Part shown: piece by piece, positions 23,855 to 27,174 of the stretch | Numbering within the stretch: position 1 is the first letter of the stretch | Layout of the letters: every line of letters starts with the position of its first letter | IMG/VR virus record: IMGVR_UViG_3300027741_000163 | Location: 1 to 33,677 of that record | Strand: one strand, 5' to 3' | Source of the DNA: a virus | Length of the DNA: 33,677 nucleotides | The notes under the pieces: model-generated | Databases searched by the model: none | What the model saw: the letters and a program-made list of their open reading frames with translations, nothing else | What the model was told of the DNA's origin: nothing | Position numbers and translations under genes: made by a program

Positions 23855-24172
23855 ATGACACCAGAACAACAACCAATCGCCAACAACCGTTATCGGCGTT
23901 GCCTCGCACGCCTTGTTCGTCGTCTTTGGCCGGAACCCGAGCGATGGGAACCAGTGGCACAAGGACTAGCGACAATCGACGGACTGCGCTACGAAATAAA
24001 GTCCGTGAGAATCGAGGGAACCTACGTCAAGGAGCGCAACCAGCACGGGCAGGAACGCTACCTCATCACCGAGCCAGATGGCACAACCTACACGCGAAAT
24101 GCCTCTCAAGTTTCTCCGACGAACGCCGACTGCGCGAAGCTCTGGAAACCAACCCCAACCCAACCACAATGA
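23855..24172 (+). CDS. Hypothetical protein ending PTQPQ
   Basis: 105 residues; not recognised. N-terminal basic helix (RYRRCLARLVRRLW), then IEGTYVKERNQHGQERYLITEPDGTTYTRNASQVSP, a beta hairpin-like segment. The first bases (CACAATGACACCAGAACAACAACCAATC) resemble the starts at 24387 and 24755, and its end (PTPTQPQ) is coded by the junction repeat. First member of a run of small genes that share ends and starts but not middles. Confidence 0.55.
   Translation: MTPEQQPIANNRYRRCLARLVRRLWPEPERWEPVAQGLATIDGLRYEIKSVRIEGTYVKERNQHGQERYLITEPDGTTYTRNASQVSPTNADCAKLWKPTPTQPQ
24155..24172 (+). repeat. Gene-junction repeat CCAACCCAACCACAATGA, copy 1
   Basis: 18 bases that code the end of one protein (PTQPQ, stop) and carry the ATG of the next (ATGA overlap). 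Exact copies at 24373 and 24741; the 13-base core recurs at 24946 without an ATG. Confidence 0.9.
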
Positions 24173-24390
24173 CAAGAGACGAATTAGACGAAATCCTCCA
24201 CCAATGCTACTCGGTGGAAATCTTTCCAGAAGAAGCGGCGGAGTTGATCTGGGGCAAAGTCTTCGACGGAGAGACAGAGAAGATCCAGCCATTTGCAGAA
24301 AAAGCCTTGTTATACGAGGATTGGCTCAAGCAAGCGGACTTGCAACTAACTGAGGATCAATTATCGCCAAATCCAACCCAACCACAATGA
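24169..24390 (+). CDS. Small acidic hypothetical protein
   Basis: 73 residues from ATG 24169 inside the first junction repeat. Helical and acidic (DELDEILHQCYSVEIFPEEAAELIWGKVFDGETEKIQPFAEKALLYEDWLKQADL), ending NPTQPQ through the second copy of the repeat. No family recognised. Confidence 0.5.
   Translation: MTRDELDEILHQCYSVEIFPEEAAELIWGKVFDGETEKIQPFAEKALLYEDWLKQADLQLTEDQLSPNPTQPQ
24373..24390 (+). repeat. Gene-junction repeat CCAACCCAACCACAATGA, copy 2
   Basis: Exact copy of 24155-24172. Ends the 73-residue protein and starts the interrupted gene at 24387. Confidence 0.9.
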
Positions 24391-24758
24391 AATCAGAACA
24401 ACAACGGATCGCAATCGCGAAGGCGTGCGGGTAGACAGCCGAGCAGGACAGCAACGGATATTGGAGAGCCGTAAGTCACAAACACGGCAACGCCGTTGAG
24501 CTTTGGCTGAGTGAGCGGAATGTCTGGAGCGTTGGCATTCCAGACTACCTTGCCGACCTAAATGCCTGTCACGAAATGGAGAAGGTGCTATTCTGCGATA
24601 AATGGAAATGGCTCGCTTACGTCAATAATCTCAACGAAATGCCATCTCTTCAAGACGAGTGGCTTTGCGTCAGTATCCACGCCACAGCCAGCCAACGAGC
24701 CGAGGCTTTTCTCCGCACCCTCGACCTCTGGCAAGAAACCCCAACCCAACCACAATGA
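24387..24758 (+). pseudogene. Phage gene interrupted by TAG at codon 16
   Basis: ATG 24387 (in copy 2 of the junction repeat) reads MKSEQQRIAIAKACG, then TAG at 24432-24434. The same frame stays open afterwards for 107 codons to TGA 24758, including PDYLADLNACHEMEKVL and SIHATASQRAEAFLRTLDLW. As I recall the family, EQQRIAIAEACG is followed by Trp and the protein ends with ATAxQRAEAFLRTxGxW, so this looks like one gene with TGG changed to TAG. A later ATG at 24576 would give only the last 60 residues. It may be a recent nonsense mutation, a readthrough site, or a sequencing error. Confidence 0.7.
24741..24758 (+). repeat. Gene-junction repeat CCAACCCAACCACAATGA, copy 3
   Basis: Exact third copy. 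It ends the interrupted gene and starts the DUF551-like gene at 24755. Confidence 0.9.
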
Positions 24759-24985
24759 CACCACAACCAATCTCCACCGCACCGAAAGGCACTCGGATTC
24801 TCCTCTACTGCCAGCGTAAAGCCACCGACGAGGGGTGGTGGGAAATCGGACAATTTTACGGGCAAATTGGCCGATGGATGAACGACGAGGACGAGCCAAA
24901 ATTAGGGACAACACAGCCAACACTCTGGCTACCATTGCCACCAATCCCAACCCAACCAGTTACCGAGGAATCCTCGGCAACTTGA
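24755..24985 (+). CDS. DUF551-like protein
   Basis: 76 residues from ATG 24755. PISTAPKGTRILLYC at the start, a central WWEIGQFYGQIGRWM and the closing PTLWLPLPPIP match the DUF551 pattern (PIsTAPkdGt.IL......w..g.w.......p.tlWmPLPp), frequent in phages and prophages with no known function. It ends beyond another core copy of the junction repeat (24946-24958) and contains a perfect hairpin near its 3' end. Confidence 0.72.
   Translation: MTPQPISTAPKGTRILLYCQRKATDEGWWEIGQFYGQIGRWMNDEDEPKLGTTQPTLWLPLPPIPTQPVTEESSAT
24946..24958 (+). repeat. Junction repeat core without a start codon
   Basis: CCCAACCCAACCA, the core of the junction repeat, inside the end of the DUF551-like gene. The bases after it differ and no gene starts there, as if the following gene had been lost. 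Confidence 0.7.
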
Positions 24986-25592: not shown

Positions 25593-25621
25593 AAAGGCGA
25601 TGAACAACCCTACCTACCTTC

Positions 25622-26770
25622 ATGGACAATTTAAATGATCACGATCCCATTACAGTTATTGAGTTCTGCGCCGGATACGGAGGTCTTGGACTTGGCATCA
25701 AAGGCGTCCTTGGCGAAAGAATGCGGCTCATCGGACTTTGTGAACTTGAGGGGTTCGCCCAAGCTAATCTCATTAGTAAAATGGAAGCGGGACTCATGGA
25801 ACAAGTTCCTATTTGGTCGAATCTGCTCACCTTCCCATACCGAAAGTTTCGAGGACTGGTGGATATCGCGGCTGCGGGAATCCCTTGTCAGCCGCACAGT
25901 CTTGCAGGAAAGCGGAGCGGAGGAGGCGATCAACGATTCCTCTTTGACGACTGGTTGTGTGGACTTGAGCAAATGCAACCAAGAGCAATTTTTATTGAGA
26001 ACGTCGAAGGATTCCTCTCAAGCAAAATGCCAGATGGAACTCTTTGCGTCGAATGGACAATCAAAAGATTGGAAGCAATGGGGTATCAAACTGCGACAGG
26101 AATATTCTCAGCGCGTGAAGTCGGCGCACCTCACCAGAGAAAGCGAGTGTTTATCCTAGCCCACCGTGACGGCAAACGAGGACAGTTATCGGATTGGTGG
26201 AAACTCGCAGCAGAGTCATTGTCTGTCAGCGATGGCGAGACGCGGAGAGCTTGGCCTTCCCGCCCCGGCGAACCCCAGCACGGATGGGAGCCGCCTAGAG
26301 TCGTGGCTAACTCCGCGAGCCAACGAACCAACGGAGGACAGCAATTTCGTGGCGAGGAATGCGGACAGGGGGGAGCATTGCCACTCCAGTCTGACGACTC
26401 AGGCGAAAGCATGGGAAACGCCAACAGTATCGACAGGGGGACATCGACAATCGGACGGATCGATGACGCCGAAACTGGATCAGCAGGTGAAGCAGGAGGA
26501 CAGCGGGAAGCACAGGCTAGGCGAGCAGGCGCAACACAACTCGGGAGGCAAATTAAATTCGCAATGGGTTTGCCTATTAATGAATCTTCCAATGGGGTGG
26601 GTGACTCCGAGTTGTCCAGTCTCAGTAATCAAGAATTGGCAGAAATTTATGAGTGGATGGAACGATGTGACAATCGCACCGACGAACTGCGCCTGCTCGG
26701 CAACGGAGTCGTGCCAGCAACCGCAACCCTAGCGTTTCAAACCCTGCTTGATGAACTCCTTGCCTTATGA
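25622..26770 (+). CDS. C5 cytosine-specific DNA methyltransferase
   Basis: 382 residues, complete. Motif I EFCAGYGGLGLG (about 14-25), motif IV GIPCQPHS with catalytic Cys89, motif VI IENVEG (ENV 126-128), motif VIII QRKRVF (172-177), a variable target-recognition stretch (about 185-330) containing AWPSRPGEPQHGWEPPRVV, and the C-terminal LRLLGNGVVPATATLAF that carries the conserved Gly-Asn of motif IX/X. No restriction enzyme is nearby, so it is probably a solitary phage methylase protecting against host restriction or marking DNA. The stop at 26768-26770 overlaps the next gene (ATGA). A second, long open frame lies inside it (next entry). Confidence 0.93.
   Translation: MDNLNDHDPITVIEFCAGYGGLGLGIKGVLGERMRLIGLCELEGFAQANLISKMEAGLMEQVPIWSNLLTFPYRKFRGLVDIAAAGIPCQPHSLAGKRSGGGDQRFLFDDWLCGLEQMQPRAIFIENVEGFLSSKMPDGTLCVEWTIKRLEAMGYQTATGIFSAREVGAPHQRKRVFILAHRDGKRGQLSDWWKLAAESLSVSDGETRRAWPSRPGEPQHGWEPPRVVANSASQRTNGGQQFRGEECGQGGALPLQSDDSGESMGNANSIDRGTSTIGRIDDAETGSAGEAGGQREAQARRAGATQLGRQIKFAMGLPINESSNGVGDSELSSLSNQELAEIYEWMERCDNRTDELRLLGNGVVPATATLAFQTLLDELLAL
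25635..26732 (+). other. Second (+1) reading frame inside the methyltransferase gene
   Basis: Relative to the methyltransferase, the +1 frame is open from ATG 25635 to the stop after codon 26732, broken once by TAG 26157-26159 (parts of 174 and 188 residues). The product is protein-like and matches, from memory, a frequent phage family: WKQWGIKLRQEYSQRVKSAHL, then TVTANEDSY, SWLTPRANEPTED, SLTTQAKAWETPTVSTGGH and GGKLNSQWVCLLMNLPMGWVTPSC (compare the 'LNPxWVExLMGxPxGW' ending). In that family a Trp stands where the TAG is. ATG 25635 overlaps the stop of a small upstream frame (ATGA). It may be an expressed overlapping gene, a decayed one, or a by-product of conserved methyltransferase codons. 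Confidence 0.4.
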
Positions 26771-27174
26771 AAATGACCGAACAACAGGTGCGTGAGCATC
26801 AATACAAGCACAAATTTCAATGTGCGCTGGATCAACCGATCAGCGTTGTCGAGCAACCGACGCTGGCTCAAGAACGCTGGCAAGCAGGTGAAGAACGTGA
26901 ACTTAATGCCCTAGTCTGCACAGACCTGCGGCGCCGGGGCTACTATGTGCTGGTCAGCAGGACTGACAAAGAATCCACCATTCGCCGAGGTCATCCCGAT
27001 TTGACTGTGATGCACCAAGGTAAGGTGTGTTGCATCGAACTCAAGGCGTCTGGAGGCAAACTGAGCAAACATCAGACCGAGTGCATTGATGAGTTGAATC
27101 AATCGGGAGTGCCAACGAAGGTCTGTTGGAACTTCGATGAGGCAGTCAAATTTGCAATCGTTTCCCTACTATGA
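26767..27174 (+). CDS. VRR-NUC-type nuclease
   Basis: 135 residues. The C-terminal 80 residues carry the PD-(D/E)xK core of the VRR-NUC family: RRGYYVLVSRTDKESTIRRGHPDLTVMHQGKVCCIELKASGGKLSKHQTECIDEL, in which Asp of GHPDL and Glu-x-Lys of ELKA are the metal and catalytic residues and GKLSKHQ is the usual following helix. The family is thought to act on branched DNA and often takes the place of Holliday junction resolvases in phages. Neighbouring ERF and helicase genes agree. The N-terminus (about 1-45) is polar and unassigned. Confidence 0.88.
   Translation: MKMTEQQVREHQYKHKFQCALDQPISVVEQPTLAQERWQAGEERELNALVCTDLRRRGYYVLVSRTDKESTIRRGHPDLTVMHQGKVCCIELKASGGKLSKHQTECIDELNQSGVPTKVCWNFDEAVKFAIVSLL

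Follow-up and report, generated by a model that had tools for sequence, protein, structure and literature searches.

M.EcoHK31I recognises YGGCCR, and the gene for its small chain overlaps the gene for the large one in another frame. The multispecific C5 methyltransferases of Bacillus phages contain exchangeable modules of about 40 residues between motifs VIII and IX. In M.AquI, the alpha chain carries motifs I-VIII, and the beta chain carries the distal variable region and motifs IX-X. According to the accessible text of PMC3404938, M.AquI and M.EcoHK31I are two-polypeptide C5 methyltransferases, the large chain of M.EcoHK31I bears motifs I-VIII and X and the small chain motif IX, and the predicted target-recognition domain of this enzyme is assigned to the large chain. 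The same text places motif IX behind the variable region in C5 methyltransferases, and M.EcoHK31I is described as naturally split in the accessible part of PMC3439449. For S. thermophilus phages, C5 methyltransferases in total overlap have been described, with a pneumococcal phage and Tn5252 cited in the same text (PMC5601072, accessible part). Two-chain C5 methyltransferases are already known, and so is a total overlap, although the latter, from streptococcal phages, is of another kind (PMC5601072). In the literature searched, which has most subscription journals outside its coverage, no description was found of full-length overlapping genes for an alpha and a beta chain with a fused start.

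Here we describe a locus that very probably encodes a two-chain C5-cytosine DNA methyltransferase of the M.EcoHK31I and M.AquI kind from two reading frames of the same DNA. The window, by which we mean the whole stretch that was analysed, comprises 33,677 nucleotides of the IMG/VR virus record IMGVR_UViG_3300027741_000163. An earlier note on this DNA had reported an intact C5 methyltransferase gene with motifs I, IV, VI and VIII, inside which the +1 frame is open for about 1.1 kb with a single TAG. The reading of the open frames agrees with this description, and all of these motifs lie in one chain that is matched by PF00145 at residues 11-188 (E 4e-25). The +1 frame is open from 25635 to 26156 (174 aa), is interrupted by the TAG at 26157-26159, and is open again up to its stop at 26730-26732. 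The frame-0 product will be called alpha and the +1 product beta (Table 1). The ATGA junction, in which the start of beta had been placed, is real: the ATG at 25635 overlaps the TGA at 25636-25638 of the 12-codon upstream frame, and this upstream frame is open back to 25318. The next gene, at 26767-27174, encodes a VRR-NUC nuclease (PF08774, 1.5e-8) and overlaps the alpha stop by ATGA. Four 35-nt copies of a repeated element (about CCCAACCCAACCACAATGA; at least 62% identity) are found at 24140-24174, 24358-24392, 24726-24760 and 24932-24966 of the window, where they are placed at the ends and starts of small genes.

Table 1. Features of the overlapping methyltransferase genes, with positions in the window.
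Feature	Position	Strand	Remarks
Alpha, C5-cytosine methyltransferase catalytic chain, 382 aa	25622..26770	+	Motifs I, IV, VI, VIII and X, without motif IX; PF00145, 4e-25; phrog_363, 6.1e-44; AlphaFold model, Foldseek match M.HhaI 2z6q, E 2.9e-12
Alpha stretch, residues 228-325	26303..26596	+	Frame-0 reading of the module array; mostly pLDDT < 50; probably a disordered pass-through
Alpha motif X (LLGNGVVPATATLAF), residues 358-372	26693..26737	+	Read from sequence
12-codon upstream frame (MNNPTYLHGQFK)	25600..25638	+	ATG at 25600; its TGA overlaps the beta ATG
Beta N-terminal half, +1 frame, 174 aa	25635..26159	+	Opposite alpha motifs I-VIII; ends at TAG 26157-26159; relative with 62% identity in L002; frame open in almost every relative
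In-frame TAG of beta	26157..26159	+	At the W of the first WxTP module; overlapped by alpha codon CTA
Beta C-terminal half, +1 frame	26160..26732	+	Variable module array and putative motif IX; possible restart at GTG 26166; own stop TAG 26730-26732; phrog_1008, 4.9e-6 alone
Beta module 1 (TVTANEDSYRIGGN...)	26157..26303	+	Family present in 8 betas
Beta module 2 (WLTPRANEPTEDSNFVARN...)	26304..26411	+	Family present in 9 betas
Beta module 3 (WETPTVSTGGHRQSDGS...)	26412..26552	+	Family present in 15 betas
Beta motif IX-like segment (LNSQWVCLLMNLPMGW)	26553..26600	+	Not in the alpha frame; position after the variable region as in the accessible text of PMC3404938

The +1 product of the window, with the TAG written as X, matches phrog_1008 over residues 78-325 (E 1.2e-10), and the part behind the TAG matches this family on its own. 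The family also takes in the beta frame of phage N15 and the separately annotated proteins gp50 of Diva (1.1e-73), gp5 of Catdawg (5.2e-59) and gp82 of Alma (2.8e-68). This bears out the earlier note, according to which products of this kind are known as separate phage proteins. That note did not contain the identity of the product. Most likely, phrog_1008 corresponds to the portion of C5 methyltransferases that comprises target recognition and motif IX, and the +1 product is in all likelihood a second chain of the alpha enzyme, bearing these two elements. No model in Pfam or NCBIfam matched beta, a sequence search with beta against the PDB gave no match, and modelling of beta alone gave a poor result (mean pLDDT 56).

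A comparison of 130 non-identical betas revealed that their variable region is an array of modules starting with WxTP. Motif IX was recognised in 114 of these betas, the other 16 having none by the pattern used, and 111 of the 114 carry between one and seven modules while three carry no module. The median module length is 39 residues (356 modules). When the 355 modules of at least 20 residues were clustered, 147 clusters were obtained, 36 of which are represented in at least three betas with varying positions and neighbours. The variable region of beta is thus made up of shuffled modules of about 39 residues, which are kept in the beta frame but not in the alpha frame. In this respect it resembles the multispecific methyltransferases of Bacillus phages with their several exchangeable modules of similar size. 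Unlike in those enzymes, however, the array is located on a separate chain and in another frame. Behind the array, the betas of the relatives show the consensus LNPRWVETLMGLPVGW, which we take to be motif IX from its place after the variable region. The segment of the window to which we presume the same assignment, LNSQWVCLLMNLPMGW, is atypical in having C and N where the relatives carry E and G, and the beta in which it is found is the one interrupted by the TAG.

M.HhaI and M.HaeIII were among the best profile and fold matches of alpha in the PDB, the fold matches spanning 173-207 columns. In the sequence profile of alpha, the match to M.HhaI stops behind motif VIII. A model of alpha based on 69 sequences (mean pLDDT 72) is confident for the catalytic domain, mostly with values above 90, and also for the helix of motif X. 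Alpha is a large chain with motifs I-VIII and X that lacks motif IX. The low pLDDT values of residues 228-325 in this model suggest that alpha probably traverses the variable region as a disordered pass-through, which only needs to stay open.

Relatives in viral contigs were collected by scans, of which that with alpha yielded one locus and that with beta nine loci. Further scans used a profile of seven aligned alphas (A1: the window, L001 found via alpha, and L002, L003, L005, L006 and L008 found via beta), for which the best 80 of 594 confirmed viral loci were taken, and a profile of seven betas (A2), for which the best 80 of 474 were taken. The same A1 alpha profile served for bacterial loci, with the best 80 of 540 confirmed. 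As five of the seven A1 sequences came through beta, the viral and bacterial A1 scans may be biased. The 171 alphas were reduced by shared 12-mers to 109 representatives, of which the A1 scan contributed 68 and the A2 scan 36, while five had been found earlier. Stops were counted over a region that begins with the profile match and ends 40 codons short of the alpha stop, an end limit that was picked after a count to the end of alpha had included the terminal stop of beta itself.

In the 68 non-redundant viral genes that had been selected by their methyltransferase, only 4 stops were found in the +1 frame, compared to 343 expected upon shuffling of synonymous codons within each gene. Indeed, 66 of these genes have no +1 stop at all, where 0.4 such genes would be expected, and the +2 frame of the same genes contains 1129 stops versus 1148 expected. 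Of the two remaining genes, L034 has a single real internal stop, and the three stops of L041 are all located past the end of beta. The absence of stops concerns both halves of the overlap, with 1 stop versus 187 expected over motifs I-VIII and 3 versus 136 behind motif VIII (63 genes). No +1 stop was detected in the 36 beta-selected genes (182 expected), and the five genes found earlier contain 2 stops versus 21 expected, one being the TAG of the window and the other the end of beta in L002. Taken alone, the window shows a modest excess of openness (1 stop versus 4.8 expected). The earlier note had proposed to compare +1 stops in homologues with codon-shuffled controls, and the outcome of this comparison strongly supports dual coding. 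On the age of the arrangement, that note was wrong: it had considered overprinting in the recent past, but about 100 non-redundant viral genes share the arrangement, as do bacterial genomes from several phyla, and this spread over lineages leads us to reject recent overprinting.

Among the 80 bacterial loci, 41 have a core score of at least 170 bits, and these contain 4 stops in the +1 frame versus 92 expected, 40 of them having none and all four stops belonging to L205. Motif IX of these 41 loci was assigned to the +1 frame in 34 cases and to frame 0 in none, with 7 undecided. The 39 more distant loci gave a mixed picture (motif IX in the +1 frame in 17, in frame 0 in 6, in both in 1, and undecided in 15) and contain 295 +1 stops versus 383 expected. 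The six loci with motif IX in frame 0 showed 63 +1 stops versus 70 expected, and the canonical methyltransferases L239 and L251 showed 23 versus 22.8 and 11 versus 11.3, respectively; all of these served as negative controls. Chance openness was rejected on the basis of the codon-shuffled controls and of these canonical enzymes with the expected numbers of stops. It should be noted that some GC-rich bacterial genes are individually of little information, since 0.1-0.7 stops are expected in them (e.g. 0.5 in L183 and 0.1 in L219). Matches to phrog_1008 (E <= 1e-8), counted whether overlapped or not, were found in 24 of 149 genomes of the bacterial family of L183, and none were found in 14 control genomes. 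Searches of plasmids with two betas for an EcoHK31I-like system gave matches, none of them in enterobacteria.

The two genes start together in most of the relatives. An ATGTGG start, in which the beta ATG is followed two bases downstream by the alpha GTG, is present in 77 of the 109 representatives, and in 48 of these 77 there is no alternative alpha start within 60 nt upstream. A further 12 representatives have the alpha ATG 5 nt after the beta ATG; 5 of the remaining ones have GTG or TTG instead of ATG, 14, including the window, differ, and 1 is cut. With fused ATGTG starts, one ribosome-binding region can serve both chains. The overlap in the relatives of the window has a median length of 355 codons.

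Divergence between relatives points to selection on both frames. Over motifs I-VIII, the four-fold-site divergence of alpha is 0.20 compared to 0.32 for flanking ORFs at 85-95% amino acid identity, and 0.10 compared to 0.20 at 95-99.9% identity. For the same locus pairs the values are 0.22 for alpha and 0.40 for flanking ORFs, with lower values for alpha in 125 of 153 comparisons that share loci and are not independent. Synonymous constraint in the methyltransferase frame, the other check on homologues that had been proposed for this locus, is thus visible as a reduced four-fold divergence relative to flanking ORFs. In Leu and Arg codons, the ratio of synonymous changes at position 1 to those at position 3 is raised (0.71 versus 0.39 at 85-99.9% identity), which is expected if the second positions of beta are guarded. 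In the module region at 75-85% DNA identity, the amino acid identity is 0.88 for beta versus 0.55 for alpha, beta being the higher in 172 of 174 pairs, and the differences are distributed over beta codon positions 1, 2 and 3 as 527, 339 and 1712. Constraint is thus stronger on alpha over motifs I-VIII and stronger on beta over the variable region.

The extent of the overlap varies among phages. Alpha and beta are almost separate genes in Alma (gp83/gp82, 50 nt overlap), overlap partially in Catdawg (gp6/gp5, 209 nt), are nested in the Paenibacillus phage Diva (gp49/gp50, the latter annotated as 'g49 internal gene') and in phage N15, and overlap fully in the relatives of the window. In N15 (NC_001901), an unannotated +1 frame within gp58 (L260:1489-2133), with AGGGAGGA before its ATG, matches phrog_31772 (1.7e-34) and phrog_1008 (2.1e-25). 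This laboratory phage thus seems to have a hidden beta chain. Diva gp49/gp50 and N15 gp58 are like the window in the two protein families involved and in how their frames are placed relative to each other, but unlike in the relatives of the window, their beta begins inside alpha from its own start site, without a fused start.

The division of the motifs over the two chains varies as well. In the loci L049, L061, L069, L077, L082, L089 and L170, motif X is missing from the end of alpha and is read in the beta frame instead. Together with Catdawg gp6/gp5 and Alma gp83/gp82, these loci resemble M.AquI, with motifs I-VIII in alpha and the modules, motif IX and motif X in beta. The window differs from M.AquI in that its motif X is located in alpha, in frame 0, and not in the small chain. 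A third division is seen in a Streptomyces locus (L266, G007) and in phage Darolandstone (L175), where motifs IX and X are in the alpha frame and only xxTP modules are in the +1 frame. Common to all divisions is that the modules are always in the +1 frame. Gp38 of the Streptomyces phage Darolandstone was considered as a single-chain fusion and rejected, since its modules are in the +1 frame and only motifs IX and X are in frame 0; consequently, none of the loci proved to be a true single-chain fusion with WxTP modules. In two close relatives, L009 and L010, frame shifts in opposite directions near alpha profile positions 96-99 swap the frames of both genes simultaneously, which may represent either assembly errors or phase variation.

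Compared to M.EcoHK31I as described in the accessible text of PMC3404938, the window is similar in that alpha has motifs I-VIII and X without motif IX. Motif IX is clear in the +1 frame of the relatives, and the putative counterpart in the window is the atypical segment of its interrupted beta. The window differs in that the overlap spans nearly the whole of both genes, with fused starts in most relatives, and in the long N-terminal half of beta that overlies motifs I-VIII. Moreover, the predicted recognition domain of M.EcoHK31I is assigned to the large chain (PMC3404938, accessible text), which is at odds with our reading, whereas the modules are kept here in the beta frame and the corresponding alpha stretch is mostly of low pLDDT. 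The published streptococcal pair P0095 gp50/gp51 (PMC5601072, accessible part) shares with the window a second frame within a C5 methyltransferase gene, on the same strand and in +1. However, gp50 of P0095 is canonical and complete, its motif IX lying in frame 0, and gp51 is a protein of 139 aa that belongs to phrog_16143. The +1 product of the window did not match phrog_16143, and P0095 gp51 did not match phrog_1008. Identity of the two arrangements was therefore rejected, P0095 being canonical with a different family of +1 ORF. In P0095, this 139-aa ORF (L268:1280-1699) lies over motifs IV-VIII of the complete methyltransferase.

Altogether, the comparative evidence makes a strong case for dual coding with a target-recognition chain in the +1 frame. 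We propose that frame 0 would yield alpha, a chain with motif X and a domain for SAM binding and catalysis that comprises motifs I-VIII, and that the +1 frame would yield beta with its N-terminal half over motifs I-VIII, the recognition modules of about 39 residues and then motif IX. Beta would be translated as a chain of its own and would assemble with alpha into one enzyme, which may mark the phage DNA against host restriction. The beta modules, swapped among phages, would set the sequences that are methylated. Alternatively, a programmed +1 frameshift near motif VIII might produce one canonical chain with motifs I-VIII, modules, motif IX and in some cases motif X. Such a shift would account for the module half being in the +1 frame, and in the seven loci with motif X in the beta frame a single shift would yield all motifs. 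It leaves unexplained, however, why +1 stops are nearly absent from motifs I-VIII and why the beta start at the fused ATGTG is conserved; a fused start followed by an N-terminal half free of stops argues against ribosomes entering beta by a frameshift. The type represented by the window would even need a second shift back, because motif X is in frame 0, and the betas of Alma and Catdawg are annotated with gene starts of their own. We therefore regard a frameshift as very unlikely. Even less credible is the view that the open +1 frame is a by-product of base composition and amino acid usage and that beta is not made. While the openness of some GC-rich bacterial genes such as L183 and L219 says little, the codon-shuffled controls keep both the composition and the protein and yet predict 343 stops where 4 are found, canonical enzymes with motif IX in frame 0 show the expected stops, and the positions of change in the modules fit a protein that is read in the beta frame. 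Two chains made from two frames remain by far the preferred reading.

The TAG within beta of the window requires separate consideration. It falls on the Trp of module 1, where the two domains of beta meet, and a GTG follows 6 nt downstream, at 26166. The idea that it arose by a change from CTG to CTA that is silent in the methyltransferase is plausible, as aligned relatives carry Trp at this position, but a sequencing error remains the alternative. Recoding of TAG was judged unlikely because TAG serves as an ordinary stop here, ending beta itself and 3 of 41 long ORFs. The beta of the window may thus be made in two pieces by a restart at GTG 26166, may be broken, or may contain a base error. 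A dead beta, leaving alpha alone and useless or being lost, is a serious but still doubtful possibility that concerns the window and not its relatives. It would fit the TAG as an ordinary stop and the atypical motif IX segment, but beta is otherwise open, and the families of its three modules recur in 8, 9 and 15 betas. In addition, the break falls exactly between the two halves of beta, closely before the GTG, and other phages begin beta within alpha. It is rather unlikely that the locus is intact and that the TAG came in through an error of sequencing or assembly. This view is favoured by the metagenome type of the virus record and by the rarity of real stops, the one in L034 being the only real internal stop among the 68 methyltransferase-selected relatives. 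On the other hand, a scan of viral contigs found no other contig with the same stretch and an A or G at the base in question. One bacterial beta frame (L265, G032) also contains a single TAG, which is located in the N-terminal half, unlike that of the window.

It is difficult to prove that both frames of a long same-strand overlap are under selection. In the present case, each frame encodes part of one known enzyme across many lineages, which makes the function of the second frame testable. Annotation often shows one frame and hides the other chain, as is the case for the beta frames of N15 and a Streptomyces plasmid, and cloning or prediction of specificity from the annotated methyltransferase gene alone may therefore make use of half an enzyme. 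With the fused ATGTG start, the two subunits could be kept at a set ratio in a simple way, and the module array amounts to an experiment by nature in which recognition modules are swapped while the DNA codes in two frames. On balance, we lean towards the view that about 1.1 kb of DNA encodes a catalytic and a DNA-reading chain from fused starts, each chain being half conserved enzyme and half overprinted, and that modules are traded in the beta frame while the alpha frame only has to remain free of stops. These loci would then represent a widespread and largely unannotated class of multispecific two-chain anti-restriction enzymes with translationally locked subunits.
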